Below, piece by piece: positions 5,121 through 64,000 of a DNA stretch of 64,000 bases. The position numbers and the translations under genes are program-made. The notes beneath the pieces were generated by a model. That model was given only the letters and a program-made list of their open reading frames with translations. It did not search any database and was not told where the DNA came from. Every line of letters starts with the position of its first letter. Positions within the stretch are counted from its first letter, which is position 1. This stretch comes from an uncultured Helicobacteraceae bacterium (GTDB taxonomy: Bacteria; Campylobacterota; Campylobacteria; Campylobacterales; Sulfurimonadaceae): positions 1 to 64,000 of the forward strand of contig CAMZLS010000011.1 of NCBI GenBank assembly GCA_947311765.1, read 5' to 3'.

Positions 5121-6118
5121 AGAAGTTCCTTCACTTTTTGTGCAATGACATCAGGTGAGATGCAAGAGATGGAAAAATCATTTTTATCAATATGTCTTAG
5201 ATCTACAGTTGTATCTGATTCAAGTGCGATATTGATAGGAGTTTTATATATCATTCGACTATTTGTAGGACCAAAAAGAGTAACAGATGCTCTATTCATC
5301 GCCCAAGCTATATGGGTTGGACCTGTATCATTTCCAATAGTTAGCTCACAATGTCCAATAAAATTGATAAGTTGGGTTAAGTTTAATTTGGGTGCTACGC
5401 TTACATTATCGCAACGAGAAGCTATCCATTGGGCATTTTCATATTCAGTTTTGTTGCCCCAGATAAGATGAAAATGCTCTGATGAAGATGTACAAAGTGT
5501 TACGATTTGCTCTTTAGGATAGATTTTGCAAGCCCAAGAAGCACCTATAACGATAGCGATATTTTTCTTTACATGTAAGGATAATGGACGTGCTTGTAAA
5601 TTGAAAAGAGCTTTTTTATTTAAGATCTCATCATCATCAATACTAAACCCTAAGGCATCAGCAACAACACCGCAGTTACGATGGATAATATTTTCCTCAT
5701 AAGCGATGGCACTTGTCGAAGTATAAAAAAATGAGGCGAGACTCTCTCTTGTGCAGTGGCGATCAAAGCCATGAATATTTTTCCCAATAAAACGCGCTAC
5801 TACAGCTGATTTTATAAGTCCCTGCATATCGATAATACTATCAAAATTACCAAGTTTTTTTAAGTAAGATATGCTTTGTTTTAAAAGCTTAAAATTTTTC
5901 TCTTTTTTGATTCTTTTAAGAGGAACGATATGCACCTTATGAAGAAGAGGATGATTTTCTATTAGAGGAGCAAAAGCCTCTTCTGTAATCCACTCAATCT
6001 GAGCATCTGGGTAATGTTTTTTAATGAGTTGTAAAACTATAGTACTATTAACAATGTCGCCTAAGGCACTGAGTCTTATGAGCGCTATACGCTTGAATTT
6101 ACTTTGATTTATAGCCAT
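5117..6118 (-). CDS. waaC: Lipopolysaccharide heptosyltransferase I
   Basis: The 333-residue glycosyltransferase family 9 protein adds the first L-glycero-D-manno-heptose to the Kdo of the LPS inner core. The N-terminus IALIRLSALGDIVNS and the C-terminal nucleotide-sugar block GNDTGPTHIAWA...TLFGPTN are typical. It acts at the cytoplasmic membrane. It is translationally coupled to the downstream lipid A acyltransferase gene. One exact TTACATGTAA palindrome lies inside it at 5569. A stop codon on the same strand overlaps its ATG as TAATG, see the finding at 6118-6325. Confidence 0.92.
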   Translation of the reverse strand: MAINQSKFKRIALIRLSALGDIVNSTIVLQLIKKHYPDAQIEWITEEAFAPLIENHPLLHKVHIVPLKRIKKEKNFKLLKQSISYLKKLGNFDSIIDMQGLIKSAVVARFIGKNIHGFDRHCTRESLASFFYTSTSAIAYEENIIHRNCGVVADALGFSIDDDEILNKKALFNLQARPLSLHVKKNIAIVIGASWACKIYPKEQIVTLCTSSSEHFHLIWGNKTEYENAQWIASRCDNVSVAPKLNLTQLINFIGHCELTIGNDTGPTHIAWAMNRASVTLFGPTNSRMIYKTPINIALESDTTVDLRHIDKNDFSISCISPDVIAQKVKELL

Positions 6119-6214
6119 TAATCAACCAAGCATCCCGATTTTTTACTAGCATTGTACATCATATTGTTTTGTATGTCAAAATTATTTTTGTTGTAGATAA
6201 AACTAGCCTCATAA

Positions 6215-6325
6215 ATTGGTATCTCTTCGAAGATCGCTTTTATCTTCTCTTTGACAATTGTCACTATGCAAGACATTCTAGAAAAGATAGTCGGGCATGA
6301 AATCTCTGATGAGTTTGGGCGTTAA
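6215..6325 (+). pseudogene. Possible C-terminal-region fragment of a CorC/CNNM-type CBS protein
   Basis: A 36-codon open stretch ends in TAA directly next to the pstB stop. It encodes LTIVTMQDILEKIVGHEISDEFG. This resembles the conserved end of the second CBS domain of hemolysin-C/CorC-like proteins (pattern GIVTxEDxLEEIVGEIxDE). No start codon or preceding domains are present. I see it as a truncated remnant; an alternative 52-codon frame lies antisense to it. Confidence 0.35.
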
Positions 6326-7111
6326 TCACCCAAACTTACCAGTAATATACTCTTCTGTTAAACGCTCTTTAGGCGTAACAAATAACTCTTCTGTGATACC
6401 TAGCTCAATAAGCTCACCTAGATACATAAATCCTGTATAGTCGCTCACTCTAGCAGCTTGCTGCATGTTGTGCGTAACGATAATGATAGAGACTTTCTCT
6501 TTAAGTTCAATAACAAGTTTTTCAATGCCTTGTGTAGAGATGGGATCAAGTGCTGAGGTTGGCTCATCAAAAAGTAAAACCTCAGGCTCAACAGCGATAG
6601 CTCTAGCGATACAAAGGCGCTGTTGTTGTCCACCTGAGAGACCGTTTGCATCATGTTTAAGGCGAGAGCTTACCTCTTTCCAGATAGCTGCGTCTTGAAG
6701 AGCTTTTTCGACTCTGTCATTAAGCTCTGATCTATTTTTAATACCTTGCAGGCGTAAGCCATAAGCTACATTGTCATAGATGCTCATTGGAAAAGCTGTG
6801 GGTTTTTGAAAAATCATCCCAATACAAGTGCGAAGCTGAATTAAATCCTCTTTAGGCTCTAAAATATTACGTCCCTTAAATTCTATAAGACCTTCATATC
6901 TGTTTCCAGGATATAAATCATGCATGCGGTTAAAAGAGCGAAGCAGGGTGGTTTTTCCACAGCCAGAAGGTCCAATAAGCGCGGTGATAGAATTTTTAGC
7001 AATAGGCATACTAATCTCTTTTAAGCTAGGTTCTGTAGTGCCATTGTATGTAAATTGAAAATCTTTTACCTCAAGTGCTTTCTCGTGAGGGATATTTATT
7101 ATAGTTGCCAT
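6326..7111 (-). CDS. pstB: Phosphate ABC transporter ATP-binding protein
   Basis: The 261-residue cytoplasmic ATPase powers phosphate import through PstC/PstA. It shows Walker A GPSGCGKT, the signature LSGGQQQR, Walker [12 protein letters not shown] and the switch histidine in VTHNM. The frame stays open upstream to 7213, inside pstA, but the start is the ATG at 7111 (MATIINIP), which overlaps the pstA stop as TAATG. It is the last gene of phoU-pstC-pstA-pstB. Confidence 0.97.
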
Positions 7112-10653: not shown

Positions 10654-10734
10654 AAAACTCTATTCGTCATTAAACAAACCCAAAGTCACATTATGCCACT
10701 ATGATAAAATCCTTACATGTAAAGAAAAAAATAG

Positions 10735-11594: not shown

Positions 11595-13241
11595 ATGGAG
11601 ATACAAACATTTAAAAAAATGCAAAAGCAGGCTTTGAAATCAAGTCAACCCGACTTTATTAAAATAGGCTTTGCACTTTTTTTTATGGTAGCCGTTCTTG
11701 TTTATAGCTTTTTAAGTAATGGCGGTATTCCAAATAGTATGTTTTTGGCAGTAGCGGCACTTTTTGGTGCTTATATGGCGATGAATATCGGTGCAAATGA
11801 TGTAGCTAACAATGTCGGTCCCGCAGTTGGCTCAAAGGCTTTAACCCTTGGTGGTGCTATTGTTATTGCGGCTATTTTTGAAGCTAGCGGTGCCTTTATC
11901 GCTGGTGGAGAGGTCGTTAAAACTATTAAAAAAGGAATTATTGATATCTCTGCTTTTGGCGGAAATGCTGATCCATTTATTTGGGCAATGATGGCGGCAA
12001 TTTTAGCAGCAGCATTATGGTTAAACTTTGCTACTGCGGTAAAAGCTCCTGTTTCTACAACGCACTCTATTGTTGGTGGCGTAATGGGTGCTGGGATTGC
12101 TGCTGCTGGATTTAGTATCGTATCGTGGGGGACAATGGGTAAGATAGCTGCTTCTTGGGTTATCTCTCCTATTCTTGGTGGCGTAATTGCGGCACTTTTT
12201 CTTTTTTCCATTAAAAAAAGTATTATATTTCAAAAAGATAGGATAGCCTCAGCTAAGAAATATGTTCCGATTTTTATATCTGTAATGGCACTCTCTTTTG
12301 TAACATATTTAACACTTAAAGGTTTAAAAAAAATATGGCCTGATATTGTCTCGTTTATAAATGATTTTATGTTCTTTACGCTTCCTGTTACAAAAAAACC
12401 TAGCTTAGTAACAGCTCTAGTTTTTGGTCTCATTATTGCGGTTATTGTTTATGTATGGGCGAAAAAACAGATCAATAAAAATGCACACAAACTGGAAAAT
12501 TCACGCCATAGCGTCAATCAGCTTTTTACTATTCCCCTTATTTTTGCTGCAGCACTTTTAAGTTTTGCTCATGGTGCCAATGATGTTGCTAATGCCATTG
12601 GACCTCTTGCGGCTATCAATGATGCGGTGATTAATGGAGGTATCTCTTCAAAGGCCGAGATTCCTTTTTGGGTTATGGCAGTTGGTGCGATTGGCATCTC
12701 TATAGGTCTTGCCTTGTATGGTCCTAAGCTTATAAAAACCGTAGGAAGTGAAATTACTGAACTTGATCAGATGCGTGCTTTTTCTGTAGCGATGGCAGCA
12801 TCTATTACTGTTATTATTGCCTCTCAGTTGGGTCTGCCTGTAAGTTCTACGCATATCGCGGTTGGCGGAGTTTTTGGTGTTGGCTTTTTGCGTGAATACT
12901 TACATGTAAGCGATATTAAAACTGTGATAGAAGATGAAAAAGAGATTCTTCAAGATGAGAAAAAACTTCTTCGTGCACTTAATCATGAGCTTTTTGCTCT
13001 TGAGAAAAAAAGTGAAAAAGAAAAATCAGATTATCAACGCATAATTGAATTATATAAAATGATAGAAGACGAAGAGATAAAAATAAAAGAGGCAAAAAAG
13101 ATTATTAAAACGGCAGAAAAAGTAAAATATGTAAAACGTGACGCGGTGAAGAAAATTATTGCTGCTTGGGTTATCACTGTTCCTGCTGCTGCAATTTTAG
13201 CGGCCTTTTTATTTTATACTATCAAAGGTATTATGGTTTAA
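11595..13241 (+). CDS. PiT-family inorganic phosphate transporter
   Basis: The 548-residue inner-membrane carrier shows the two inverted repeats of the PiT family, each with the GANDVAN signature (residues 66-72 and about 326-332) and with VSTTHS / VSSTHI blocks. It imports phosphate (or metal phosphate) by ion symport with low affinity and so complements the Pst system next door. A charged, coiled-coil-like insert (about residues 440-520) precedes the last membrane helix. An ATG with AAGGACAG upstream is the start. The gene carries one TTACATGTAA at 12900. Confidence 0.92.
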   Translation: MEIQTFKKMQKQALKSSQPDFIKIGFALFFMVAVLVYSFLSNGGIPNSMFLAVAALFGAYMAMNIGANDVANNVGPAVGSKALTLGGAIVIAAIFEASGAFIAGGEVVKTIKKGIIDISAFGGNADPFIWAMMAAILAAALWLNFATAVKAPVSTTHSIVGGVMGAGIAAAGFSIVSWGTMGKIAASWVISPILGGVIAALFLFSIKKSIIFQKDRIASAKKYVPIFISVMALSFVTYLTLKGLKKIWPDIVSFINDFMFFTLPVTKKPSLVTALVFGLIIAVIVYVWAKKQINKNAHKLENSRHSVNQLFTIPLIFAAALLSFAHGANDVANAIGPLAAINDAVINGGISSKAEIPFWVMAVGAIGISIGLALYGPKLIKTVGSEITELDQMRAFSVAMAASITVIIASQLGLPVSSTHIAVGGVFGVGFLREYLHVSDIKTVIEDEKEILQDEKKLLRALNHELFALEKKSEKEKSDYQRIIELYKMIEDEEIKIKEAKKIIKTAEKVKYVKRDAVKKIIAAWVITVPAAAILAAFLFYTIKGIMV

Positions 13242-13249
13242 GTGGTGCC

Positions 13250-13279
13250 TACATGTAAAGAGATTTTCTTTACATGCAA
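13250..13279 (+). terminator. Hairpin built from two facing TTACATGTAA-like copies after the PiT gene
   Basis: A one-mismatch copy (CTACATGTAA, 13250-13259) faces another (TTACATGCAA, 13270-13279). Their extended arms TACATGTAAAGA and TCTTTACATGCA pair into a stem of about 12 bp. It begins 8 bases after the PiT stop codon and is the likely 3' end of that transcript. Confidence 0.5.
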
Positions 13280-13947: not shown

Positions 13948-13973
13948 AATTTGCTTTACATGTAAAGCAAATT
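13948..13973. repeat. 26-bp perfect palindrome centred on TTACATGTAA
   Basis: Positions 13948-13960 are exactly complementary to 13961-13973. The centre is an exact TTACATGTAA (13956-13965) extended outwards by TTTGC / GCAAA. It lies between the divergent cyclophilin and outer-membrane genes, 16 bases before the latter's start. As RNA it would form a hairpin with almost no loop; as DNA it is a strong dimer-binding site candidate. Confidence 0.85.
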
Positions 13974-18995: not shown

Positions 18996-21900
18996 TTGAG
19001 CCCATATTATGCAATAGAAAACTTTAGAAAGAATCTTTTGTCTTTATTTATACTCTTTTTAATTTTCATTATATCATCTTCGACAGCGTTAGCAACATCC
19101 ATAATTAAGGCTGAATATCGTTTCGATGAATGTTCTTATGATGGCACTATTGGAGAGGTGGAAGATAGTATAATTGGCGATAATAATGGAACACTTAGCG
19201 GAGCTATTAGTATTAGTGCAACTTCTAAAGTCTGCAATAGTGCTGAGTTTAACGGGGGTGCTATCGATATTGATAATCTTGATGTTAATACAAGCACAGG
19301 TGCTAAAACGACAGTCTCTTTTTGGATGTTTTGGGATGGAACAAATAGCGTAATGCCTTTTGGTTGGCGTATGCATGACTTATGGTTTTACGATGGAAGC
19401 TTTGGTTTCAATAGCGCTTCGGGGGATATCTATGGTATCAGTTCTACTGGACTTGCTAACAGTTGGCACCATGTCAGCGCAATTTTCACAAACGGTGATG
19501 TTCACTCAGATAAGCTCTACATAGACGGAGTTGAACAAAACCTCACACAAAGAAGAAACAATCCAAATAATTCAAGAGCAGTCGTACAAAGTAGCGCTCG
19601 TATCGGAGGCTGGCTCTATAATAACGGCTACCGTTTTAGCGGAAATATAGATGAACTCCATATCCACAAAGGAGAGCTAGATAGTGCAGGTGTAAATCAG
19701 ATTATGAATGCAACGCACAGCTGTAAGTGCCCTTTAGCCGTAGGAGAGTGGAATTTAGATGAGTGTTTCTGGAATGGCACAAATGATGAAGTAGAAGATA
19801 GCAGTACAAATGGCTATCATGGAACAGCACAACATGGAGCTACAACGCAAAAAAGTGCTGATGCTGGTGGCGGTACATGTAATGTTGGTGTTTTTTCAGA
19901 CAACTATGTTTCTCTGGCAAGTTTTCCACACTTAACTGCTTCACGAAGTATCTTGGCATGGTTTAAATCAACAAACCGCAGTGAAAGTGGACAGCGTATC
20001 TTTGCAGATGACGAAAATAATAATAACGGTTCGTATGCTCTAAGTGTCGGTGATGGCGGTGCAGGAAGAGTACGTTTTTATATTAGAGGCTTAAGCGCGA
20101 CATCATTAGATAGTGGCGCAGTTGTTCAAAACAATACTTGGTATTTTGTCGCAGCGACTTTTAATGCGGACAGTATGCAAAAACGTTTAGTCGTTTATGA
20201 TGCAAACGGTGCTATTTTAAGTGATGTTAATGCTAGTGTAAGTGGAGCTATAGGCACACAAACAGGAACAGCGAGTATTGGAGGTGAAACAGACAGCGGT
20301 GAAGTCAATTACCGTTTTAGCGGAAATATAGATGAAGTAAAAGTCTATGATACAGCCTTAAATGATTCACAAATTCAAGTACTTATGAGTACGAGCCACC
20401 CTTGTGGTTGCGCAGAAGTGATTGCAAATTATCGTTTTGATGAGTGTGGTTGGCATGGGAGTGTTGGTGAGGTAAGAGATGAAATTTTAGGTGATAATAA
20501 TGGCACCCGTACAGATGCCAATGTCAATACTTCTGGTACAGAGGCAAAAATCTGTAAAAGTGCACAGTTTGCAGGTGGGGCAGTTGATATTCATAATCTT
20601 GCGGTAGATACAGATGATGGTGCTAAAAACTCTGTGGCTTTTTGGATGTACTGGGATGGAACAAATAGTGTAATGCCTTTTGGTTGGCGTATGCATGACT
20701 TATGGTTTAGAGATGGAAGCTTTGGTTTTAACAGTGCTTCAAGCGATATTTATGGAATAAGTTCTGCTGGCTTAGAGAATGGTTGGCACCATATAGCAGC
20801 AATATTTACTAATAAACATCTTACAGATAACGAGCTGTACGTTGATGGCGTGAAGCAGACTTTGACTCAGAGAAGATATTCTCCAAATAATTCAAGAGCA
20901 GTAGTGCAGAGTGATGCTCGTATTGGAGGATGGCTTTACAATAATAGCTACCGTTTTAGAGGTTACTTGGATGAATTTTACATTTATAGAGGTGTCCTTA
21001 AAAGTCCTCAAATTCAACTTTTGATAAATGAAACGCACCCTTGTGGATGTATAAGTTCGGTTACTAATTTCAAATTTGACGCATGGGACAGTTTCAGGAG
21101 TATCAACGACAGAAATATCTCTACAAAAATAAGCGCGCAAGATTTTAATCTTCTACTTGCATCACTTAATGAAACAGATGATGACTTTCAAGAGTTTAAC
21201 GGCACACTCTGCACGCAGATAGTAGATGTCAAACACGCAAATACTCCAAAGACCCCTTGGGTAAAAACAGTTTTTACAGATACAAACACCTCTTTTGTAG
21301 CCTATCGTGTGTACTCTGCACTAGAAGAGGCGAGAGTTTTGATAAAATGGCAAAAAGATAGTGATGTTACATGTAACGCAATGATAGAAGATAACTCTAC
21401 GCTCTCTAGTGATGCTTTTGCTATTCGTCCTAATGGCTTTACATGTAAGATAGATTTGGGAACTCTTATTGCTGAGAAGTCCTATCCTTTAAGGCTTACT
21501 GCTACACAATTTGCATCTACTTCACCAACTCCTGATTATAATACTTCCAATGTTATCATAAGTTCCAATCGCTATATGAACAACAGCGAAAAAAATGATT
21601 CACTCTTAGGTACTTTTTCTATGACAAATGTTTTGCCATTTCAAGATGGAAACTCCTCTTCTAGTGGTACTGTAAGTTTTAGTGATGTGGGCATTATTGG
21701 GATAGATATTAACGATAGCACTTGGGCAAATGTGGATAGTGATGATACACTCTTAAGAGATAGAGTAGTTCACTCTGAATGCAATCGTACTTTTGGAGCA
21801 GATCATTTTGATGTGACTCTCACAACACCGCAGGTGCAAAACAGTGCAACAAACTTTACCTACCTCTCTAATGATTTAAATATAAGTGCATCGGTCAAAA

Positions 21901-22805
21901 ATCTTGCTCTAACACTAGAAGCAAGAGGAGCAAATGGAGCTTTGCTTCAAAACTACAAGGTACCACAATCTCATTTCTTTGCAAAAAATGTTGATATCAC
22001 GCCTCTTGTGAAGCTTCCTGATTCACCTTCTGCAAGTGCAGTAAGTATAGATAATCCAGTAGCTCAGACAGATGCACTGCTAGATTTTAAAGAGGGAAGC
22101 GTAGATATCAATTACACAAATGTCCGTTTTAATTACCCAAGAAGCTTTAAAGAACCACAAAATCCATTTGTGATTCAAGGAACAGATACAAACTTTTCTG
22201 TAGAAGTTCATGAAAGTGCCAATAGTGATGTAAATGGCTCTGCTTCTACTCCAGCAAGTGCTAGCGCTACATTTTATTTCGGCAGACTTCACCCAAAAGA
22301 TGTAAAAACAAGTAATGACCCTGCTCAAACAAGTATAGAGATAGAGGTATATGATAAAAATGGAGGCAATTTTGTCAATAATTTTAGACAAAATTCACTC
22401 TATTGGTATCGAAATAAAAACCATACTAGTAGCAGTGAGGGAAATGTAACTGCTATAGAAGCCACACAAACAATGAGCCTCACAAATCCATCTGACTTTA
22501 CTCTCCCCACAAGTGATATTTCGAGTCCAAATAGCGGTGTAGTTGATGTAAATATTGCTAAACATACAGGGCGTTATTTCTTACATGTAAAGACCCAATC
22601 ATGGCTCTGGTATGCACCTGAAGGTTTTGGAAATGCTTATGATGATAGTGTAAATTCGCAATGCATAGAGCATCCATGCTTGAGTTATACAGCTAAAAAT
22701 ATTGTACTCAATCGTGACATATCAAGCGGAACTTTTAATGGAAGTGACCTAACCCCTAAATCACGTGGAGACTATATTAAGAAAGGGATTAAGGTATTTC
22801 GATAA
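18996..22805 (+). CDS. Large MshQ-like surface protein with three LamG domains
   Basis: The 1269-residue protein starts with TTG (AGAGG 8 bases upstream, 3 bases after the previous stop) and has a hydrophobic export signal at about 15-33. Three laminin-G/concanavalin-like domains follow (about 36-245, 246-472, 473-690), each with WHH(V/I) or TWYFVAA strands and ending in a Cys-rich junction (HSCKC, HPCGC). The C-terminal 580 residues match the MshQ/DUF6701 pattern (FAIRPNGFTC, FYFGRLHP, NSLYWYRNK). It probably forms a pilus-associated adhesin at the cell surface. LamG1 and LamG3 are near-identical at DNA level. Four TTACATGTAA-type palindromes lie in it, three of them exact. Confidence 0.8.
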   Translation: MSPYYAIENFRKNLLSLFILFLIFIISSSTALATSIIKAEYRFDECSYDGTIGEVEDSIIGDNNGTLSGAISISATSKVCNSAEFNGGAIDIDNLDVNTSTGAKTTVSFWMFWDGTNSVMPFGWRMHDLWFYDGSFGFNSASGDIYGISSTGLANSWHHVSAIFTNGDVHSDKLYIDGVEQNLTQRRNNPNNSRAVVQSSARIGGWLYNNGYRFSGNIDELHIHKGELDSAGVNQIMNATHSCKCPLAVGEWNLDECFWNGTNDEVEDSSTNGYHGTAQHGATTQKSADAGGGTCNVGVFSDNYVSLASFPHLTASRSILAWFKSTNRSESGQRIFADDENNNNGSYALSVGDGGAGRVRFYIRGLSATSLDSGAVVQNNTWYFVAATFNADSMQKRLVVYDANGAILSDVNASVSGAIGTQTGTASIGGETDSGEVNYRFSGNIDEVKVYDTALNDSQIQVLMSTSHPCGCAEVIANYRFDECGWHGSVGEVRDEILGDNNGTRTDANVNTSGTEAKICKSAQFAGGAVDIHNLAVDTDDGAKNSVAFWMYWDGTNSVMPFGWRMHDLWFRDGSFGFNSASSDIYGISSAGLENGWHHIAAIFTNKHLTDNELYVDGVKQTLTQRRYSPNNSRAVVQSDARIGGWLYNNSYRFRGYLDEFYIYRGVLKSPQIQLLINETHPCGCISSVTNFKFDAWDSFRSINDRNISTKISAQDFNLLLASLNETDDDFQEFNGTLCTQIVDVKHANTPKTPWVKTVFTDTNTSFVAYRVYSALEEARVLIKWQKDSDVTCNAMIEDNSTLSSDAFAIRPNGFTCKIDLGTLIAEKSYPLRLTATQFASTSPTPDYNTSNVIISSNRYMNNSEKNDSLLGTFSMTNVLPFQDGNSSSSGTVSFSDVGIIGIDINDSTWANVDSDDTLLRDRVVHSECNRTFGADHFDVTLTTPQVQNSATNFTYLSNDLNISASVKNLALTLEARGANGALLQNYKVPQSHFFAKNVDITPLVKLPDSPSASAVSIDNPVAQTDALLDFKEGSVDINYTNVRFNYPRSFKEPQNPFVIQGTDTNFSVEVHESANSDVNGSASTPASASATFYFGRLHPKDVKTSNDPAQTSIEIEVYDKNGGNFVNNFRQNSLYWYRNKNHTSSSEGNVTAIEATQTMSLTNPSDFTLPTSDISSPNSGVVDVNIAKHTGRYFLHVKTQSWLWYAPEGFGNAYDDSVNSQCIEHPCLSYTAKNIVLNRDISSGTFNGSDLTPKSRGDYIKKGIKVFR

Positions 22806-23365
22806 TGCGTAGAGCAATAACACTGATAGAGCTTATCTTTTCTATGATGATAATTGCGATTGTTTTTACGGTTGTGCCAAAAATAATCTTTGCTTCAAAC
22901 AAATCTTTGCAAGTAAGCATGAAAGAAGATGCTCTTTTTAATGCAGTGACTCTTGTAGGAAATATCGCAAAATTACCTTGGGATGAAAATACTATACTAA
23001 CAAATGGTGGCATCTTAGATGCTGGAGGTCTTACATGTAATAATGGCTATAGAAAAGGGGGCTTTAAAGGGTCTCGTAACTGCCTTGATAATGATGGCTC
23101 TGCTTCTTGGGATGTCTCAGGAGTTATGGGTTTAGAAGATGCTTTTTATAATGATGTAGATGATTATAATGGCGATTCTCAATCCACTTTAGGTGGACGA
23201 ACAGCGTATGAGCTTAATACTTCAGTAGTACAAAATGGCGATATTAAAACTATCATTGTGAGTGTGAGTACAAGCGATAAGCGTCTTGGCACTCATTTTA
23301 AATCAAGTTTTTTTTATGATTCTGCAAACTTGGGTCATATACAGATAAATAAACGGATATGGTAA
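22805..23365 (+). CDS. Prepilin-like protein (minor pilin) 1
   Basis: The 186-residue protein has a class III leader: short RRA, then ITLIELIFSMMIIAIVF, with the key Glu5 of mature pilins. The residue before the cleavage point would be Ala, not Gly. A globular domain follows with Cys pairs (GGLTCNNGY, SRNCLDND). It overlaps the previous stop by 1 base and the next gene by 7 bases. It likely belongs to the initiating or minor pilin set of the MSHA-type system (positions of mshD/mshO). Confidence 0.8.
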   Translation: MRRAITLIELIFSMMIIAIVFTVVPKIIFASNKSLQVSMKEDALFNAVTLVGNIAKLPWDENTILTNGGILDAGGLTCNNGYRKGGFKGSRNCLDNDGSASWDVSGVMGLEDAFYNDVDDYNGDSQSTLGGRTAYELNTSVVQNGDIKTIIVSVSTSDKRLGTHFKSSFFYDSANLGHIQINKRIW

Positions 23366-24683: not shown

Positions 24684-25147
24684 AAAAAGCATTTTCACTT
24701 TTAGAACTTATCTTTGTTATTGTTATTATAGGTATTATGGCAGCTCTTGGAGCTGGTTCTATAAAGACAAATCATCTCTTAAACGATAGTCACTATATTT
24801 TAGGAAAAATTCGTGAAGCACAGTACAAGGGCATAGGTTTTGAGCATCGAAATTTTGATGGAACATTTATCGCAAACACTCAAGGATGTGTGACATTGAC
24901 ACCTGCTTTTCTTGATGGAAATGCGTCAAAAGCAGAGGCAAAATATAGCTTACATGTAAATATAGATCATAGCTCCTTAACTACAGACACGCTCTGTTTT
25001 GATACAAAAGGACGACCACACGATGGAAATTTTGCGCAAAACACTCTAATAATGGAACAAAAAGTGCTTAATTTGACATATAATACTAAAAGTACAACAA
25101 TTACTATAGAACCACTCTCGGGCTATGCTATAATAAAGTACAATTAA
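24680..25147 (+). CDS. Prepilin-like protein (minor pilin) 3, GspH/MshD-like
   Basis: The 155-residue protein has the leader MKKA, then FSLLELIFVIVIIGIMAALGAG with Glu5; the residue before cleavage is Ala. The globular domain has a Cys pair (TQGCVTL, DTLCFD). It overlaps the previous gene by 4 bases (ATGA). It is a minor pilin or pseudopilin for the MSHA-type machine. The exact TTACATGTAA at 24950 encodes Leu-His-Val here. Confidence 0.8.
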   Translation: MKKAFSLLELIFVIVIIGIMAALGAGSIKTNHLLNDSHYILGKIREAQYKGIGFEHRNFDGTFIANTQGCVTLTPAFLDGNASKAEAKYSLHVNIDHSSLTTDTLCFDTKGRPHDGNFAQNTLIMEQKVLNLTYNTKSTTITIEPLSGYAIIKYN

Positions 25148-36207: not shown

Positions 36208-36246
36208 TTTATTCCTTTACATGTAAGTATAGTGTACAATATATTT

Positions 36247-36955: not shown

Positions 36956-37162
36956 TTACCAAACTTTTTGAGAGCTACGCTCTGGCTTAGGCTCTTGGGA
37001 ATGAAAGTCGATTAAATTCTCATCGCAATCTTTATGATAATACCCCTGAAGGTCATAATATTCATGGCATGAATTATAGTAACGTTCACTAATGCCATGT
37101 TTATTGACACAGCCACTAAAAAGCGAAAGAGTGATGATAAGAGTAAGTATTACATGTAACAT
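36956..37162 (-). CDS. Small lipoprotein
   Basis: The 68-residue protein has a lipoprotein signal (LTLIITLSLFSGC). The mature region is rich in Tyr and His. It is convergent with cmoA, with one base between the stops. An exact TTACATGTAA at 37150 directly follows the start codon and encodes its second to fourth residues, Leu-His-Val. The function is unknown. Confidence 0.6.
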   Translation of the reverse strand: MLHVILTLIITLSLFSGCVNKHGISERYYNSCHEYYDLQGYYHKDCDENLIDFHSQEPKPERSSQKVW

Positions 37163-46053: not shown

Positions 46054-46929
46054 TTGCTTCCTTCTTCTGTTACGAAACTCTCTTTTCGTGGCAGAGATTT
46101 TTATATCAAACGAGATGAGTTGCTTCATTATGAACTCAGTGGCAATAAATTTCGTAAACTCTATGCACTTATTCAGGCTCCCTCTTCGCAATACTCTAAA
46201 ATAATCTCTTATGGTGGCACGCAATCAAATGCAATGCTTGCTATCGCTTATCTAGCCAATATAAAAGGCTGGAAATTTGATTATTATTCAAAACCCATAG
46301 CCTTACATGTAAAGAATAATCCACAGGGCAATTATAAAAAAGCACTTGGCTTAGGGATGAATAGTATCGAAGTTGCTCATAATGAATTTGAAAAGATAGT
46401 TTCAGGACTTTTTTTACATGTAAACGCTCATGAAGTTTTAATTGCTCAAGGTGGTGCAGATAAGATAGCGCAAAAGGGTATTTCTGTTTTGGCAGATGAA
46501 ATTTGTCTCTGGCAAGAAGAAAAAAAGATTGAAAAATTACATATCATCACCCCCTCAGGAACAGGAACGACAGCCTATTATCTTGCAAAATGTATGCCTA
46601 CTTATAAGATTATAACGACTCCAGTTGTAGGAGAGAGCGAATACTTGCGCACAGAGATGAAAGCCTTAGGTGAGATTTCTGAAAACTTACATGTAATCAA
46701 TACAGAAAAAAAATATCGCTTCGCTAAACCTTATAAAGAGTATTATCAAATATATCAAGAACTTAAAGAGAGTGGTGTAGAATTTGACCTTCTTTATGCG
46801 CCAAAAATGTGGCTTGCATTTTTAGAAAATATCGAGCAGTTTGATGGAGATTTTCTTTATGTTCATAGCGGAGGTGTAAGTGGAAATGAGACGATGTTGC
46901 AACGCTATAAATTTAAAGGGATGAGATGA
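46054..46929 (+). CDS. PLP-dependent ACC deaminase / D-cysteine desulfhydrase family enzyme
   Basis: The 291-residue fold-type II PLP enzyme has its cofactor Lys in ELSGNKFRKL, followed by SYGGTQSNAM, ITPSGTGTTAYYL (phosphate loop) and a C-terminal HSGG. The substrate (ACC, D-cysteine or other) cannot be read from the sequence. It starts with TTG 4 bases after the Peb4-like gene stop and overlaps the next gene by ATGA. It is unusual in carrying three exact TTACATGTAA palindromes (46303, 46414, 46687), all encoding Leu-His-Val. Confidence 0.82.
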   Translation: MLPSSVTKLSFRGRDFYIKRDELLHYELSGNKFRKLYALIQAPSSQYSKIISYGGTQSNAMLAIAYLANIKGWKFDYYSKPIALHVKNNPQGNYKKALGLGMNSIEVAHNEFEKIVSGLFLHVNAHEVLIAQGGADKIAQKGISVLADEICLWQEEKKIEKLHIITPSGTGTTAYYLAKCMPTYKIITTPVVGESEYLRTEMKALGEISENLHVINTEKKYRFAKPYKEYYQIYQELKESGVEFDLLYAPKMWLAFLENIEQFDGDFLYVHSGGVSGNETMLQRYKFKGMR

Positions 46930-49991: not shown

Positions 49992-51074
49992 TTAGTTTCT
50001 ATCAAGCGCATTCAGATCTGTAAATGCTTCGCTAACACGCTTTACAAGACCTTCTTGTCCAGCGCGTAGCCATTTTCGTGGATCATAGTACTTTTTATTT
50101 GGTTTATCATCGCCCTCGGGGTTTCCGATTTGAGCTTGAAGATAATCTAAATACTCCTCTACAAAACCTTTGACACCATTCCAAGTAGCCCACTGCGTAT
50201 CAGTATCGATATTCATCTTGATAACACCATAGCTAATACCCTCACGAATCTCTTCAAGAGTTGAACCAGACCCACCATGGAAAACAAAGTTTACAGGTTT
50301 GTCACTTTCAGTAGAGAAATTTTTTGCTATAAATTTTTGAGAATTATCTAAAATACTTGGTGTTAAGACAACATTTCCAGGCTTATAGACACCATGAACA
50401 TTTCCAAATGAAGCGGCTATTGTGAAATGAGGACTGATTTTTGAAAGTTCTTCATACGCATACGAAACTTCTTCAGGTTGTGTATAGAGTAGGGCGTTAT
50501 CGACATTTGTATTATCAACACCGTCTTCTTCTCCGCCTGTAACACCAAGTTCGATTTCGATACTCATATCAATCTTAGCCATACGCTCTAAATAATTTTT
50601 ACATGTACCGACATTTTCTTCCATAGGCTCTTCTGAGAGGTCAAGCATATGAGAGCTAAAAAGTGGTTTTCCATAGGCTTCATAAAACTCTTCTCCAGCA
50701 TCAAGAAGAGCATCAATCCAAGGTAAAAGCTTGCGTGCAGCGTGGTCTGTGTGTAAGATAACAGGGATTCCATAAAGCTCTGCCATCTGATGCACATGCA
50801 TCGCTCCAGCAATTGCACCAGCGATAGCAGCTTGTTTGTCTTCATTGCTCAAGCCTTTGCCTGCATAAAAAGATGCGCCTCCATTTGAAAATTGGATAAT
50901 GACAGGAGAATTAACATTCTTGGCCGCTTCTAGTACACCATTAATGGAGTCGGTATTGACAACATTGACAGCAGGTAGTGCAAATCCAGCCTCTTTAGCT
51001 GCTGTATATACTTTAAAAACATCTTCACCTGATAAAACACCTGGGTTTACTAAATCTAAAATTTTCTGTGACAT
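49992..51074 (-). CDS. fba: Fructose-bisphosphate aldolase, class II
   Basis: The 360-residue zinc-dependent aldolase of glycolysis/gluconeogenesis has zinc ligands in ILHTDHAARK and later HG blocks. SSHMLDLSEEPMEENV, VFHGGSGSTLEEI and the C-terminal YDPRKWLRAGQEG are typical of the class IIa form. It is cytoplasmic. It is divergent from the M23 peptidase. In Campylobacter it follows peb4 directly; here seven open frames separate them. A one-mismatch palindrome is at 50599. Confidence 0.96.
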   Translation of the reverse strand: MSQKILDLVNPGVLSGEDVFKVYTAAKEAGFALPAVNVVNTDSINGVLEAAKNVNSPVIIQFSNGGASFYAGKGLSNEDKQAAIAGAIAGAMHVHQMAELYGIPVILHTDHAARKLLPWIDALLDAGEEFYEAYGKPLFSSHMLDLSEEPMEENVGTCKNYLERMAKIDMSIEIELGVTGGEEDGVDNTNVDNALLYTQPEEVSYAYEELSKISPHFTIAASFGNVHGVYKPGNVVLTPSILDNSQKFIAKNFSTESDKPVNFVFHGGSGSTLEEIREGISYGVIKMNIDTDTQWATWNGVKGFVEEYLDYLQAQIGNPEGDDKPNKKYYDPRKWLRAGQEGLVKRVSEAFTDLNALDRN

Positions 51075-51150: not shown

Positions 51151-52476
51151 ATTAAACTTTTTATTCTATTTTTTTTCTTACATGTAACACTTTTTGCAAA
51201 CCCATTTGCTACGGTTTATGCTGAATTAGCCAAAGAGCTTGCGCAAAAGCAAAAAGATAGCGAAATTTTAGAGACTATTGATGATTTTGAGCATAAAGAT
51301 GAGCTGCAAAATTTCAAAATTTGTGTTGATGATGCCTTTAAAATAGGCTTTAATCTTGAAAAAAAGAGAGAATATCTCCAATCTTTGCGCCATTGTGAGG
51401 CTCTATATGAAAAAATCCACTATTGCCACTCTAAAGCAATTCGTAAAAGTATAGCTAGAGATGATTATGAAAAATTTACACAACTTTTAAGTGTGGGTTT
51501 AGCAAAAAACAGTTCACTTGAAAAAGAAGTTTTAGCCTATTATCAAAAAAATCGTAAGCGAAAAAAAGTCGCCTATGGTGAAAATATGATAGAAGACGCT
51601 TCTATGGAGAAAGAGAGTCGTCGTATATATGTGCAGGAGTACTCAAAGTATGAAGAGTATATCGCGGTTTTAGCCAAAAAAGAAGCTGATAAAATTCGCA
51701 AGATGACAGCACCATCAAAGCGCAGAAATGTTCTTGTCAGTACACAAAAAACTTCTAATGGCTATGACTTTATAGCTGAAAATTTTAATGCCTTTAGAGT
51801 TACAGTGACGCTAAATCTTACAAATATGCACAATATCATAGTAGATAAAAAACTTCCTTACTCTTTTGAGCTCCCAGCTAAAAGTCTTCAAAAAGTCTTA
51901 CATGTAAGCATAAGAGACTCTCGTAAAAGTATGAAATTTAAGTCACATTTTTCTTGGATTATGGGTTCTGCTTGGGCAAAACATAGTGATGTGCTCTATC
52001 GTTTTCCTTTTGCAAAAGGTGCTAAAATCTATGTTTCTCAAGGTTTTAATGGAAAGACTTCACATCGTGGAAAAAATGCCATAGATTTTGCGGTCAAGAT
52101 AGGTACACCAATTTATGCATCGCGTGGAGGAGAGGTAGTCTCACTTCAAGAGTCTAATAGTCGTGGAAAATTTGATAAAAGTTATAGTAAGTATGCAAAC
52201 TATCTTATCATTGAGCACGCTGATAAAACACTAGCAAAATATTATCATCTTAAAAAAGATGGAGTTGTGCCTCTTGTAGGGCAAACAGTGAGAGCAGGGG
52301 AATTGATAGCATATTCTGGAAATACTGGCTATACAAGTGGAGCTCATCTGCATTTTAGTGTCTCAATGGTGAACCCATATAATATGAGACGCTCCAAAAC
52401 TATTGCTATACATTTTGTAAATGGAGGAAAAATGACATCTGCACCTAAAAAAGGAGATATAATTACGGTAAAATAA
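51151..52476 (+). CDS. M23-family metallopeptidase, probable ATT start
   Basis: The 441-residue protein has a signal peptide (KLFILFFFLHVTLFA), a helical region (about 20-180), a beta domain and a C-terminal LytM domain. Zinc motifs are HRGKNAID and AHLHFSV, with YANYLIIEH between. It cleaves peptidoglycan cross-links in the periplasm, or regulates such enzymes. No ATG/GTG/TTG stands at the signal peptide, but an ATT at 51151 has AAGGGAG 5 bases upstream. In-frame alternatives are TTG 51115 and ATG 51073, which would add hydrophobic or fba-overlapping residues. The palindrome at 51178 codes Leu-His-Val within the signal peptide. Confidence 0.8.
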   Translation: MKLFILFFFLHVTLFANPFATVYAELAKELAQKQKDSEILETIDDFEHKDELQNFKICVDDAFKIGFNLEKKREYLQSLRHCEALYEKIHYCHSKAIRKSIARDDYEKFTQLLSVGLAKNSSLEKEVLAYYQKNRKRKKVAYGENMIEDASMEKESRRIYVQEYSKYEEYIAVLAKKEADKIRKMTAPSKRRNVLVSTQKTSNGYDFIAENFNAFRVTVTLNLTNMHNIIVDKKLPYSFELPAKSLQKVLHVSIRDSRKSMKFKSHFSWIMGSAWAKHSDVLYRFPFAKGAKIYVSQGFNGKTSHRGKNAIDFAVKIGTPIYASRGGEVVSLQESNSRGKFDKSYSKYANYLIIEHADKTLAKYYHLKKDGVVPLVGQTVRAGELIAYSGNTGYTSGAHLHFSVSMVNPYNMRRSKTIAIHFVNGGKMTSAPKKGDIITVK

Positions 52477-52496: not shown

Positions 52497-52799
52497 CTAA
52501 CTCTTTACATGTAAAGCAATCCAGTGTGCATCAGTAGAAGTTGAGAGAACTCGATGACGTTGATGAGCTTTTATAAGAAGATAGTCCCCAGTAGTAAGCG
52601 TTTTTATATGAGTTTCAAATTCAATTTGAGCCTCACCTTTTGCTAAAAATACCCACTCGATTTCTGCTTGCTCGTACCATTGCCCATTATGAAAAGTATT
52701 TGATTGTATATGTTCGATTTTGAGATTTTTACTTTCAAAAAGAGTACTAAATGTTTCGTTTCCTATGCTTGGAGTGTCTTTGCTATTAAAAATATTCAT
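52497..52799 (-). CDS. Small cupin-domain protein
   Basis: The 100-residue single-domain beta-barrel has the pattern WYEQAEIEWVFLAKGEAQIEFE...LTTGDYLLIKAHQRHRV, a cupin motif pair with only some of the metal His. There is no signal peptide. The ATG at 52799 is preferred over an in-frame ATG at 52811. The palindrome at 52505 codes the C-terminal LHV. The substrate is unknown. Confidence 0.75.
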   Translation of the reverse strand: MNIFNSKDTPSIGNETFSTLFESKNLKIEHIQSNTFHNGQWYEQAEIEWVFLAKGEAQIEFETHIKTLTTGDYLLIKAHQRHRVLSTSTDAHWIALHVKS

Positions 52800-53766: not shown

Positions 53767-53809
53767 TTGACTATAATTGCACTAATATTACATGTAAGGA
53801 TTTAGACGC

Positions 53810-61023: not shown

Positions 61024-62135
61024 TGGCAGGTTTGACTCTTGATGCAGGAAAATGTGTTCGTGCTTTAAGTAAATTTAGCACCTGCGATAGTTGTTTGAGT
61101 GCTTGTCCTACACCTGCAATCGCTATTGAGAGTGAAAAGCTTCCTGCTATCAATCTCTCTTTATGTGTTGGATGTGGCGCTTGTGTTGGTGTTTGTCCTA
61201 CAGAAGCTTTAGAGTTAGATGATTTTACTATTTCTAATTTCTTTTTTGAGTTTGCTTCAAAGAGTGAAACTTTAGTCTCTTGCCGTAAAAATGTACCATG
61301 TTTGAGTCTCTTACATGTAGAGTACATTATCGCACTTAGTTCGCTTAAAAATGGCATTATATTTGATATGGGACATTGTGAAGGATGTGAAATTGCTTCA
61401 TCATGTAAGCCGCTTATTGAAGCACATGTTGAAGAGGCTAATTATGTTTTAGAAGCAACACAGCAAGAAGCGCGTGTTGTCATGAAAAATGTCTCTTTTG
61501 AAAATAGTGATGAAACTGAGGATAATGAAAACAATCGTCGCTCCTTCTTTAAGGCAATCAACTTAGAAAATGTAGCAGATGCTAAAGCACAGTTTGAACG
61601 CTCCGTAGAAATCGCGACAGATGATTTTGTAGAAAATTTCTTATCATCAGCGCAGATTGCTACCTTGCGAGAAAAAGAGCTTGGTGACAAGCGTAAGCTT
61701 CTTTTTACTGCATTAAAAAGAGTGCAAAAACCTTCGCAGTACCATGTTGTCGAGGGTGAATCTCTTAGTTTTACTTCTCAAAAGATTTTTAATAAAGAGA
61801 CTTGTACAGCATGTCAAATGTGTTATCGTATCTGCCCTACAGGTGCACTTAGCTCAGATTTAAGAAACTCAAAGATAGACTTTGATCCTTTTATGTGTAT
61901 AAAGTGTCATCTCTGTCATGATGTCTGTGAACCTCATTCGCTAACACTTTCAAGTTCATATAATCTTAAAGAGTTGTTTGAGCCATCAGTGCAGAGATTA
62001 GTTGCGTTTAATGTACGAAATTGTCATGAATGTGGTGGAATTTTTACTTCACTTAAAGGTGAGAAAATCTGTAGGCGTTGTACAATAGAAGAGGAAGAAG
62101 CAAGAGAATTATGGGGAATAGAAGATGATGAATAG
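61023..62135 (+). CDS. Multi-cluster ferredoxin-like protein with zinc-ribbon-like end
   Basis: The 370-residue cytoplasmic protein has two N-terminal ferredoxin motifs (CDSCLSACP, CVGCGACVGVCP), a middle Cys group (SCRKNVPC, CEGCEIASSC) and two further motifs (CTACQMCYRICP, CIKCHLCHDVCE). It ends in CHECGG...ICRRC, zinc-ribbon-like. It partly resembles NapF-type maturation ferredoxins. It may donate electrons or clusters during assembly of the molybdoenzyme. It overlaps both neighbours. Confidence 0.8.
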   Translation: MAGLTLDAGKCVRALSKFSTCDSCLSACPTPAIAIESEKLPAINLSLCVGCGACVGVCPTEALELDDFTISNFFFEFASKSETLVSCRKNVPCLSLLHVEYIIALSSLKNGIIFDMGHCEGCEIASSCKPLIEAHVEEANYVLEATQQEARVVMKNVSFENSDETEDNENNRRSFFKAINLENVADAKAQFERSVEIATDDFVENFLSSAQIATLREKELGDKRKLLFTALKRVQKPSQYHVVEGESLSFTSQKIFNKETCTACQMCYRICPTGALSSDLRNSKIDFDPFMCIKCHLCHDVCEPHSLTLSSSYNLKELFEPSVQRLVAFNVRNCHECGGIFTSLKGEKICRRCTIEEEEARELWGIEDDE

Positions 62136-62895
62136 TGCTAATACGATAGGTAATGCAACAAAACTGTATGGTTTTATTTCAGAGTATGCACAGCAAAATA
62201 GAATGAGCGTAAGTTTGAATCGTCTCTTTAAGGCTGATGGTATAAATATGATGATGATTCCGATGAATATTCGAGAAGATGATTTTTTCTTTACACTAAG
62301 CAATATGAAAAAATCTCATGTTAATGGAGCAATGATTGCTCAAGAGTATCGCCAAAATGTTATAGAGCTTTTAGATGAGAGCAGTGATTTTGTGAGAAAA
62401 ACTGGATTTTGTGATTTTGTAAGGGTGGATAATGCTCTATTGAAGCCATTAAGGATTACTCCAATCGCTATCAAAGAGAAGCTTAGAGCCTTACATGTAA
62501 AGAGAGTTGCTATTATCGGTACAACACCTTTGGCTTACGCCCTAGCTTTAGATCTTAGAGAGTGTAAATGTGCTTTTTTTGACCCATATATAGAAGAGTT
62601 AATGAAACTAAGTGAGTCTGTTGGTGTAGAGATAGACATTAACCGTATATCTGATGATATGAGTATAGATTTGTCATCTTTTGATATCCTCATTAATGCC
62701 TCTGACTTAGAAGATTTTTCTATGATTAAAGCATTTCCAGCTTGTGTGATAAGCTTACATGTAAACGATACAACAAATTTAAAATCTCTCACGCAAGCCT
62801 CTTGTCTTGAGTATATAGACTATGAGATGATGCTAGAAGATTTAAGTAAGACAGCCTACGCAATAATTACTAAGGAGTATAAAAATGAATACTGA
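62125..62895 (+). CDS. Shikimate-dehydrogenase-like protein in the molybdoenzyme operon
   Basis: The 256-residue protein has an N-terminal domain similar in plan to the substrate domain of AroE (ADGINMMMIPMNIREDDF...NGAMIAQEYRQNVIELLDE). A Rossmann-like half follows (VKRVAIIGTTPLAYALALDL). The AroE catalytic Lys of NVTxPxK is not preserved (GAMIAQEYR) and the nucleotide loop is degenerate. So it is probably not an active shikimate dehydrogenase; it may bind a related ligand or act in assembly. Two exact palindromes (62491, 62755) lie in it. It overlaps both neighbours by 11 bases. Confidence 0.6.
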   Translation: MMNSANTIGNATKLYGFISEYAQQNRMSVSLNRLFKADGINMMMIPMNIREDDFFFTLSNMKKSHVNGAMIAQEYRQNVIELLDESSDFVRKTGFCDFVRVDNALLKPLRITPIAIKEKLRALHVKRVAIIGTTPLAYALALDLRECKCAFFDPYIEELMKLSESVGVEIDINRISDDMSIDLSSFDILINASDLEDFSMIKAFPACVISLHVNDTTNLKSLTQASCLEYIDYEMMLEDLSKTAYAIITKEYKNEY

Positions 62896-63394
62896 TGATA
62901 TTTCAGACTTAAAAGCTGAATTTGATAAATTTGTACGCGAAGAGTGCAATATAGACCCTGAACAACAAAATGAACATGAAAATCAAGATTTAGGTGATCC
63001 AGCTGATGAGGAGCCAGTTCCTGGTTTTGTGGATGACTTGACAGATAAGTTACTTGCACCTTCTAAATGCGGTGTCTATCTCTCTCGTTTAGATATTAAG
63101 CGTGTGGCAGAAGCTATCGATGAGTCTTTACCAATTAAAGAGCGTAAAAAGATGGTGAAGATGATGTTTCGCCATACAACAAAGAGAGAGTATCTCAGAG
63201 ATGCCTTTGATGAATTTTCACGACATATGAATGGACGCGTTTTGATTTATCAAGAGTTAAGTGAGGCATTTCCTGCATCTGCGTATATTTTTGATGCCAA
63301 TATTGCTAAAGTGAAGAAAACTCAGAAGTTATTTGATCAAATAGTAAATGACTACGAAGAGATAGAGCCCACTTCAGACCCAATGATGATATAA
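62885..63394 (+). CDS. Hypothetical protein of the molybdoenzyme operon
   Basis: The 169-residue soluble protein has an acidic, disordered-looking N-terminus (about 20-55) and a helical C-terminal part (RLDIKRVAEAIDESLPIKERKKMVKMMFRH...). I know no domain for it. The 11-base overlap with the AroE-like gene ties it to the operon. Confidence 0.65.
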   Translation: MNTDDISDLKAEFDKFVREECNIDPEQQNEHENQDLGDPADEEPVPGFVDDLTDKLLAPSKCGVYLSRLDIKRVAEAIDESLPIKERKKMVKMMFRHTTKREYLRDAFDEFSRHMNGRVLIYQELSEAFPASAYIFDANIAKVKKTQKLFDQIVNDYEEIEPTSDPMMI

Positions 63395-63422
63395 AAAGTG
63401 TAGATTTAGCACTGCATCTTAA

Positions 63423-64000
63423 ATGAGTTCGTTTACTTTTGAATATCCTTATCTATTATTGTTACTTATACCACTACTGTGGTGTCTCTTTACATGTAAG
63501 GAGAAAATACAGTGGCAATATTTTGTGCATTTGCAACTTTTTTCCCCTAAAAAACCATGGCTGAAATTAGAATGCTTGCTTAAAATCATCACTCTTGTGG
63601 CTTTGCTTGGCGCTCTTGCCTCTCCTGTTTTATTTGATAATGCGCATCCTGATAGACGTCATGGTGTGGATATTGTTCTTTCGCTTGATGGTAGTGGTTC
63701 GATGAGTGCTTCTGGCTTTGATGCCAAAAGTCGTCAAAGTCGTTTTGAGGCGGTTCAAGAGATTGCTCAGGAGTTCATCTTGAAGCGTGTCAATGATAAT
63801 ATCGGGGTAGTTCTTTTTGGAGACTATGCTTTTATTGCTTCACCTGTGACATATGAAAAAGAGATTGTAGCAGAAATGATTTCTTATCTTTCTCACGGTA
63901 TGGCAGGGCAAAATACGGCTATAGGTGAAGGTATTTTAATGGGACTTCGTGCCTTAAAAAATTCAAAAGCCAAAGAGCAGATTATTATCTTACTCAGTGA
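63423..64000 (+). CDS. von Willebrand factor A protein, BatA-like (truncated by window end)
   Basis: The frame runs from ATG 63423 off the right edge (192 complete codons). Two N-terminal membrane helices (about 10-25 and 55-75) precede a vWA domain whose MIDAS motif is DGSGS in VLSLDGSGSMS. The arrangement is that of BatA/BatB membrane proteins, which often lie with MoxR ATPases in stress or metal-cofactor clusters. The palindrome at 63490 falls in the first membrane-helix region, encoding FTCK. Confidence 0.85.
   Translation, partial: MSSFTFEYPYLLLLLIPLLWCLFTCKEKIQWQYFVHLQLFSPKKPWLKLECLLKIITLVALLGALASPVLFDNAHPDRRHGVDIVLSLDGSGSMSASGFDAKSRQSRFEAVQEIAQEFILKRVNDNIGVVLFGDYAFIASPVTYEKEIVAEMISYLSHGMAGQNTAIGEGILMGLRALKNSKAKEQIIILLS

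Follow-up and report, generated by a model that had tools for sequence, protein, structure and literature searches.

Why should a single short palindrome recur throughout the chromosome of a bacterium related to Sulfurimonas? The window, the whole stretch of 64,000 nucleotides analysed here from an uncultured Helicobacteraceae bacterium, holds 27 exact copies of TTACATGTAA, all lying within 5569-63499 as originally predicted (the first at 5569, the last at 63490-63499). Dinucleotide shuffling gives an expectation of 0.11, and none of 100 shuffles of the window reached 27. Under order-2 and order-3 Markov models, 54 occurrences (both strands counted) compare with 0.23-0.27 expected, and TTACATGTAA is the sole 8- to 10-mer of such excess in the window. 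The original prediction had proposed a genome-wide count as a check and put the excess at roughly 100-fold; the 1.98-Mb genome contains 866 copies, about 240-fold over chance, and none of the reversed word used as a control, so the excess stands but the figure was too low. Chance or base composition as the source is ruled out by the shuffles, the Markov models and the reversed-word count. The exact copies in the window are:

Site 1: 5569..5578, strand., glycosyltransferase-like ORF 5117-6118
Site 2: 10713..10722, strand., intergenic, upstream of ORF 10735
Site 3: 12900..12909, strand., phosphate-permease-like ORF 11595-13241
Site 4: 13956..13965, strand., intergenic, ORFs 13357-13935 / 13989-14471
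Site 5: 21367..21376, strand., ORF 18996-22805
Site 6: 21439..21448, strand., ORF 18996-22805
Site 7: 22581..22590, strand., ORF 18996-22805
Site 8: 23031..23040, strand., pilin-like ORF 22805-23365
Site 9: 24950..24959, strand., pilin-like ORF 24680-25147
Site 10: 26570..26579, strand., ORF 25157-26641
Site 11: 27187..27196, strand., ORF 26638-27261
Site 12: 27698..27707, strand., secretin-like ORF 27656-29197
Site 13: 30158..30167, strand., ORF 29978-30775
Site 14: 36217..36226, strand., just upstream of ORF 36232-36954
Site 15: 37150..37159, strand., intergenic, upstream of ORF 37269
Site 16: 42729..42738, strand., histidine-kinase-like ORF 41693-43195
Site 17: 42899..42908, strand., histidine-kinase-like ORF 41693-43195
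Site 18: 46303..46312, strand., PLP-enzyme ORF 46054-46929
Site 19: 46414..46423, strand., PLP-enzyme ORF 46054-46929
Site 20: 46687..46696, strand., PLP-enzyme ORF 46054-46929
Site 21: 51178..51187, strand., peptidase-like ORF 50899-52476
Site 22: 51898..51907, strand., peptidase-like ORF 50899-52476
Site 23: 52505..52514, strand., between ORF ending 52476 and ORF starting 52841
Site 24: 53788..53797, strand., just upstream of histidinol-dehydrogenase-like ORF 53810-55099
Site 25: 62491..62500, strand., ORF 62125-62895
Site 26: 62755..62764, strand., ORF 62125-62895
Site 27: 63490..63499, strand., downstream of ORF 62885-63394

The core variants in the window are:

13249..13258, strand., CTACATGTAA, outermost base changed
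19873..19882, strand., GTACATGTAA
24606..24615, strand., TTACATGTAG
34933..34942, strand., TTACATGTAG
36685..36694, strand., TTACATGTAG
50599..50608, strand., TTACATGTAC
61311..61320, strand., TTACATGTAG

The word has the core TACATGTA with graded outer positions, and its extended consensus is about CTTTACATGTAAAG. Among one-off variants, enrichment is confined to changes of the outermost base (CTACATGTAA, 16 observed vs 0.67 expected), and inner-position variants occur at or below expectation. The 22 coding sites in the window read as Leu-His-Val (17/22) or Thr-Cys-Lys/Asn (5/22), the contexts named in the original prediction, and the three copies noted there in one PLP-enzyme gene are found. 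Between G199 and G055, motif-bearing species at 80% DNA identity, 57 of 64 sites are exactly shared against 18-24% for the control, the comparison between relatives that had been proposed as a further check, and G110, of the same genus and divergence and without the cognate methyltransferase, shares none (0/37 and 0/48). Within the sites, 104 of 108 synonymous codons are identical (96%, against 65.8 or 61% expected), and constraint thus acts on the DNA, as had been supposed; a protein motif as the cause is excluded by this freezing together with the three reading contexts.

Among 399 genomes of the order, TTACATGTAA is abundant in two families only: the Sulfurospirillaceae, one genome of which was identified as S. 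diekertiae, and the family to which the window belongs, with Sulfurimonas as the nearest named relative. The word is associated with a gene for a D12-class (N6-adenine) methyltransferase, which in the window's genome (G000) lies outside the window at G000:C148:22661-23644; its neighbours are recO and a glutamate-synthase-like gene on one flank and, on the other, a signalling gene. This enzyme is an orphan, no restriction gene adjoining it in the neighbourhoods of G000, G001, G005, G055, G199 and G220. With an enriched genome defined by an at least 3-fold excess of the motif, 40 of 44 genomes carrying the gene are enriched and 13 of 36 without it (Fisher p=2e-7, uncorrected for phylogeny), which backs the link to methylation put forward originally. 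The association is found inside genus g37 (p=2e-4) and is not significant inside genus g2 (p=0.3), both likewise uncorrected. Near the methyltransferase gene, two of three alignable sites are common to G000 and G001.

The 13 motif-rich genomes without a detectable intact enzyme still hold many TACATGTA copies, e.g., 1201 in G210, 1124 in G122 and 611 in G156. One such enriched genome, G290, retains a 93-aa methyltransferase remnant, a sequence trace by which a recent enzyme loss is supported for this genome only, and searches of other enriched genomes at E-values up to 10 returned only weak, doubtful fragments. Short and doubtful remnant matches were seen in G323, G266 and G289. Four enzyme-bearing genomes (G003, G019, G347, G071) show no motif enrichment. 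The methyltransferase tree contains deep resident clades with 20-65-fold motif enrichment and a shallow clade that mixes both families at 0.5- to 35-fold, a pattern suggesting that the enzyme moved laterally and the motif then built up. Sequence matching found no solved structure resembling the enzyme; distant phage homologues carry the annotation 'ulcer associated adenine specific DNA methyltransferase', i.e., the hpyIM type of H. pylori with target CATG (PMC4450513). The palindromic target of this enzyme (M.HpyI) fits the centre of TTACATGTAA, a likeness drawn via the annotation name of the distant phage homologues; hpyIM adjoins the restriction gene iceA1 in some strains, whereas the D12 enzyme has no such neighbour in the six genomes examined.

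Taken together, TTACATGTAA is an independent counterpart of cyanobacterial HIP1 among the sulfur-bacterial relatives of Sulfurimonas and Sulfurospirillum. It is not HIP1 itself, as the word differs from GCGATCGC, and the original prediction was right both in drawing the analogy and in knowing of no described element of this sequence, for no description was found in the literature consulted. Like HIP1 and the alternate HIPs (Elhai 2015, PMC4390886), it is a perfect short palindrome far above Markov expectation genome-wide, dispersed at about 0.2-0.8 per kb through coding and non-coding DNA without common flanks, with one dominant word per genome, absence from some lineages, one-off variants mostly at the outermost base, and an association with a solitary methyltransferase, here with 13 enriched genomes lacking a detectable intact gene. 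Unlike HIP1, it belongs to another phylum, is an AT-rich 10-bp word with a CATG core, goes with a D12 adenine methyltransferase related to CATG (hpyIM-like) enzymes, lies in a phased A/T context, and occurs in hosts that lack MutL and show signs of lateral enzyme transfer.

In Haemophilus and Neisseria, uptake-sequence drive spreads a word and restores its lost copies. The USS of Pasteurellaceae and DUS of Neisseria resemble TTACATGTAA in copy number, dispersal, strong site conservation, a bias towards permissive positions, scarcity on new DNA and lineage-specific variants, and USS also in A/T-rich flanks; high conservation of uptake sequences and their rarity in newly arrived DNA are documented (PMC2397512), and A/T-rich flanks are known from Pasteurellaceae (PMC1626085). 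Here too, recently acquired DNA is poor in sites, with plasmids carrying 4 vs 17.8 expected, 2 vs 22.3 and 10 vs 22.3, and strain-specific blocks having about half the site density in G220 and G055, though not a lowered one in G199. TTACATGTAA differs from USS/DUS in being a perfect palindrome that is linked to a methyltransferase and has symmetric phased flanks to +/-65 bp. In the same phylum, methylation of RAATTY by the solitary adenine methyltransferase CtsM is described as needed for efficient transformation of Campylobacter jejuni, methylated self DNA being the better substrate (cited in PMC8627207). RAATTY itself is a 6-mer that occurs very often (28,482 sites in C. coli), not a long word that has accumulated. 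ComEC, the sole transformation component searched, is present in 27/27 genomes, and competence gene presence was therefore discarded as a discriminator.

The reading favoured here, at a probability of about 0.45, is that TTACATGTAA is a HIP-type palindrome written and maintained together with the orphan D12 methyltransferase, its mark being read by the host, most likely by the transformation machinery. The most likely use is that of a methyl-marked self-DNA uptake signal. The D12 enzyme would methylate the CATG-centred core; its gain would start the accumulation of sites and its loss their decay. A conserved host system, most likely natural transformation, would read the mark, and marked self DNA would be preferentially taken up and recombined, as with uptake-sequence drive and CtsM, so that the word spreads and lost copies are repaired. 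More tentatively, a laterally mobile solitary methyltransferase may rewrite whole chromosomes: once it has entered a new species, more than 1000 methyl-marked 10-bp palindromes would accumulate and then be held site by site, because the mark is read by the machinery of DNA uptake or of chromosome wrapping. Such a self-DNA vocabulary coupled to methylation would be one that has so far gone undescribed.

The main rival, distinctly less probable, replaces uptake with wrapping: the palindrome would be the dyad of a protein-DNA complex in which a long stretch of DNA is wrapped, formed by a nucleoid protein or at a preferred gyrase/topoisomerase site, and selection for chromosome architecture would keep the sites, with binding tuned by methylation. 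The sites are indeed the centres of A/T tracts: A/T content rises and falls every 11.25 bp, phased on the dyad and symmetric to at least +/-65 bp. The amplitude is 0.065, control words of similar composition giving 0.001 +/- 0.004, and phasing is positive in 13/13 sequence sets, coding and intergenic alike; composition- or periodicity-matched words are flat and were rejected as its source. To our knowledge, such a context has not been reported for HIP1. This symmetry outreaches the flanks of known uptake sequences and could point to a wrapping protein, as could the conservation of sites one by one. Gyrase sites of E. coli likewise have a motif that is symmetric over 130 bp and whose flanks vary in GC with a 10.75-bp period (PMC6379681), but this motif lacks a fixed core of 10 bp. 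Furthermore, the phasing fades smoothly and is still present beyond +/-70 bp, and part of it may thus be general 11-bp genomic periodicity. Gyrase and nucleoid proteins are also general, whereas the word is lineage-specific and tracks a laterally moving methyltransferase, and neither irregular spacing nor depletion on plasmids fits architecture well.

It seems improbable that the word is a neutral by-product, made and kept by methylation-dependent repair or mutation bias. The methyltransferase link, the outer-base bias of one-off variants and the lack of shared sites in enzyme-free G110 resemble the HIP1 case, for which G-meC-directed mismatch repair was proposed (Elhai 2015, PMC4390886). However, MutL was absent in 18/18 genomes searched (control searches were positive in 11/14, and a MutS_I domain is present in 15/18), so MutS/MutL-directed repair is not available and the HIP1 model does not suit these hosts. 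A 10-bp word would also need biased repair at each position, and keeping 57/64 sites at 80% identity demands near-perfect correction.

A lineage-specific global transcription factor is a far weaker candidate. The dimer-like palindrome, its graded outer positions and some intergenic enrichment would suit a binding site, but 58-81% of the sites are intragenic, at every gene position and in both orientations, the number of intergenic sites follows the length of the spacers for each of the four gene orientations, and the total of 866-1500 sites per genome also speaks against it. No promoter or gene-orientation preference was found, which rules out a regulator of divergent promoters. Spacing is near random (CV 1.09, variance/mean 1.2-1.3) and slightly even in Sulfurospirillum; such dispersal, together with the missing preferences, speaks against the sites being a segregation signal or the targets of a classical regulator. 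The original prediction had described the word as sparse in conserved blocks; the three long gaps exist, but copies lying 2.2 kb apart on average should leave about two gaps of 5.5 kb or more by chance, and the depletion reading is not supported. Finally, a repeat or mobile element that dispersed recently, for which only copy number speaks, can be set aside, since the long shared flanks that the original prediction would have taken as refutation are missing (any two copies agree at 36/80 positions at best, mean 22.6) and the copies sit in coding frames as ordinary codons, conserved at orthologous positions.

Why one palindrome fills some bacterial genomes has been unsolved since the discovery of HIP1. 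This second, independent case opens the question to experiment and speaks against mismatch repair: the candidate enzyme has been gained and lost naturally over dozens of species, MutL is missing, close relatives differ in whether they have the word, and one host, Sulfurospirillum diekertiae, is in culture. The phased A/T context offers a structural handle. If the uptake reading is true, it would tie DNA methylation to partner choice in transformation. Two other words were considered along the way. G071, whose methyltransferase branch is long, has an excess of TCATGA of about 2-fold, too weak for an alternate HIP, and an apparent second dispersed word in G003, CCTGTGTT, is actually one 27-unit tandem repeat.

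The palindrome TTACATGTAA occurs 27 times in the window, every copy lying where the original prediction had placed it, compared with 0.11 copies from shuffled sequence, and no other 8- to 10-mer of the window is comparable. With up to one mismatch allowed, the 27 exact copies are joined by 12 others (39 matches), seven of which keep the core TACATGTA intact and have the outermost base altered. Across the window's genome (1.98 Mb, 148 contigs), 866 copies are found, compared with none of the same word read backwards. No flanking sequence is common to the copies, of the kind that a recent repeat family would share. The proposed avoidance of conserved blocks did not hold up, as the gaps in the window are those produced by random spacing.

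The site extends beyond its ten bases. One-base variants are tolerated at the outermost position only (CTACATGTAA, 16 copies against 0.67 expected), while inner variants are at chance level or lower, the second base being a mild exception. Just outside them there is a strong preference for C or T at -1 and for C at -2, and the extended consensus is approximately CTTTACATGTAAAG. Around the sites, A/T content oscillates with a period of 11.25 bp and a phase set by the dyad, extending at least 65 bp to each side and weakening farther out. In Sulfurospirillum-type genomes, the amplitude is 0.065 compared with 0.001 ± 0.004 for words of the same periodic composition. It is equal for coding and intergenic sites, and the oscillation is positive in all 13 sequence sets from both families of bearers, i.e., genomes rich in the word. 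The sites thus sit in the middle of helically phased DNA, which would lend itself to bending or wrapping.

Site conservation was compared in 200-kb stretches of genomes. Between the motif-bearing species G199 and G055, 20% of aligned bases differ; even so, 57 of the 64 sites that could be aligned are the same in both, compared with 18-24% for control decamers. Among codons wholly within sites and with unchanged amino acid, 104 of 108 are identical, whereas 66 would be predicted from these codons at other places (for GTA, 21 of 23 against 34% predicted). Since codons inside sites stay identical beyond prediction, the constraint acts on the DNA word rather than on a protein motif, as had been proposed. 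In G110, a relative of the same genus and distance without the methyltransferase described below, none of 37 and none of 48 orthologous positions carried the word, compared with 10-13% for the control.

In a survey of 399 genomes of the order, high counts are confined to two families, within which they range from 0 to 1500 per genome; genomes outside carry 0-11 copies, similar to the control. One family is the window's own, and the best named matches of a window protein are Sulfurimonas-type genomes (~81% amino-acid identity). The other is assigned to Sulfurospirillaceae because the second contig of G055 matches plasmid pSDCE1 of Sulfurospirillum diekertiae ACSDCE without a difference across the 20 kb compared; a named Sulfurospirillum contig has 8 copies in 15.5 kb. 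One bearer holds 1061 copies of this AT-rich word despite 54% G+C in the stretch sampled. The flank around TACATGTA depends on lineage, being that of TTACATGTAA in most, CTACATGTAG in G336 and G290, and highly varied around ACATGT in G208. A literature search found no description of TTACATGTAA in these bacteria.

The METHYLTRANSFERASE of bearer genomes is a D12-class adenine methyltransferase of 320-340 amino acids (Pfam PF02086) with the motifs FAGxG and DPPYN. In genus g5, as in the window's genome and a congener of it, the enzyme's gene adjoins recO, with a glutamate-synthase-like gene close by; in Sulfurospirillum genomes it adjoins a CheY-like gene. No adjoining restriction gene was found in these neighbourhoods. 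At G208:C1 and G359:C1, a gene for an Eco57I-like methyltransferase/restriction protein adjoins it. Distant phage homologues are annotated as 'ulcer-associated' methyltransferase, which is the hpyIM type of H. pylori. That type targets CATG (PMC4450513), a specificity that fits the palindrome's centre and offers a lead to the candidate target of the D12 enzyme. The gene of the window's genome (sample L154, 5656-6672) itself contains three copies of TTACATGTAA, those of G001, G005 and G022 two each, and that of the S. diekertiae plasmid four of TACATGTA; Sulfurospirillum chromosomal genes contain none. Self-regulation through such copies is possible.

For the 80 genomes compared from the two families, TACATGTA was in excess by 3-fold or more in 40 of the 44 that carry the D12 gene and in 13 of the 36 that lack it (Fisher and Mann-Whitney, each p = 2e-7, treating genomes as independent and ignoring phylogeny). 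The association recurs inside genus g37 (p = 2e-4, phylogeny likewise ignored) and is not significant inside genus g2. In the enzyme tree, deep clades are family-specific and show 20- to 65-fold excess; a single shallow clade intermixes both families, and excess there is 0.5- to 35-fold. Because of this mixing, the gene appears to have been transferred laterally between the families. In the simplest reading of the tree, the enzyme would have arrived first and the word built up later, and bearers that lack the enzyme would have lost its gene recently. Among enriched enzyme-less genomes, a remnant is clear only in G290, other matches being short and doubtful. No trace was found in the strong bearers G122, G210 and G156, where a different enzyme with this specificity, or some other driver, may be at work.

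The putative methyl mark could plausibly be read in two ways, by DNA uptake or by wrapping. Uptake is placed first because it would explain how one laterally acquired gene rewrites a genome. The word would then be a signal for the uptake machinery, and it is as abundant, dispersed and conserved, and as rare on new DNA, as uptake sequences are (PMC2397512; PMC1626085). ComEC was present in all 27 genomes searched, plasmids are depleted (observed against expected: 4 and 17.8, 2 and 22.3, 10 and 22.3), and strain-specific blocks have about half the density in two of three genomes. A precedent, cited in PMC8627207, is CtsM, a solitary methyltransferase marking Campylobacter jejuni DNA for transformation. 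Wrapping, plausible in second place, would make the site the centre of a gyrase-like protein-DNA complex, and the flanks, being symmetric and phased, are similar to the gyrase motif, which spans 130 bp and has a periodicity of 10.75 bp (PMC6379681). Mismatch repair, which in the HIP1 model requires MutS and MutL (PMC4390886), fits poorly as the cause, since MutL is absent from all 18 genomes tested in both families, while control searches gave matches. A MutS_I domain occurs in 15 of the 18, in a protein of ~1000 amino acids, a MutS without MutL. Separately, the ORF list of the window includes a block of prepilin-, secretin-, GspE/PilB- and PilC-like genes (22805-34242), which probably encodes a type IV pilus or a type II secretion system such as those that serve DNA uptake or adhesion.

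The suggested likeness to HIP1 is borne out in that the word behaves as a highly iterated palindrome in most descriptive respects. However, it differs in word, phylum, enzyme and repair background and is thus not HIP1. In 2018, Xu and colleagues reportedly found HIP1 sites to be conserved and subject to selection, and the present case agrees on site conservation. It adds natural gain and loss of a candidate enzyme and a structural context. The likeness to uptake sequences lies in distribution and conservation, known here at the sequence level.

Other words also deviate from expectation. GATC is strongly avoided in the window (1-64000; 194 against 538 expected), as are AGATCT, TGATCA and GTATAC, and the same avoidance is seen in several relatives (samples of G208, G290 and G071); it looks as if restriction pressure acted at GATC-type sites. 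Non-palindromic words of the type CTCTTTTG / CCTCTTTG, together with their complements, exceed expectation 3- to 7-fold in many relatives (samples of G003, G029, G110, G336, G016 and G005). G003 also carries a tandem repeat of ~27 copies of the 9-bp unit TGCCTGTGT / TTTCCTGTG (L178, 13585-13830). In G071, which has a divergent methyltransferase relative and lacks TACATGTA, TCATGA is 2-fold and ATCATGAT 3.5-fold above expectation (L100, L161-L165), and these may represent a weak alternate word.
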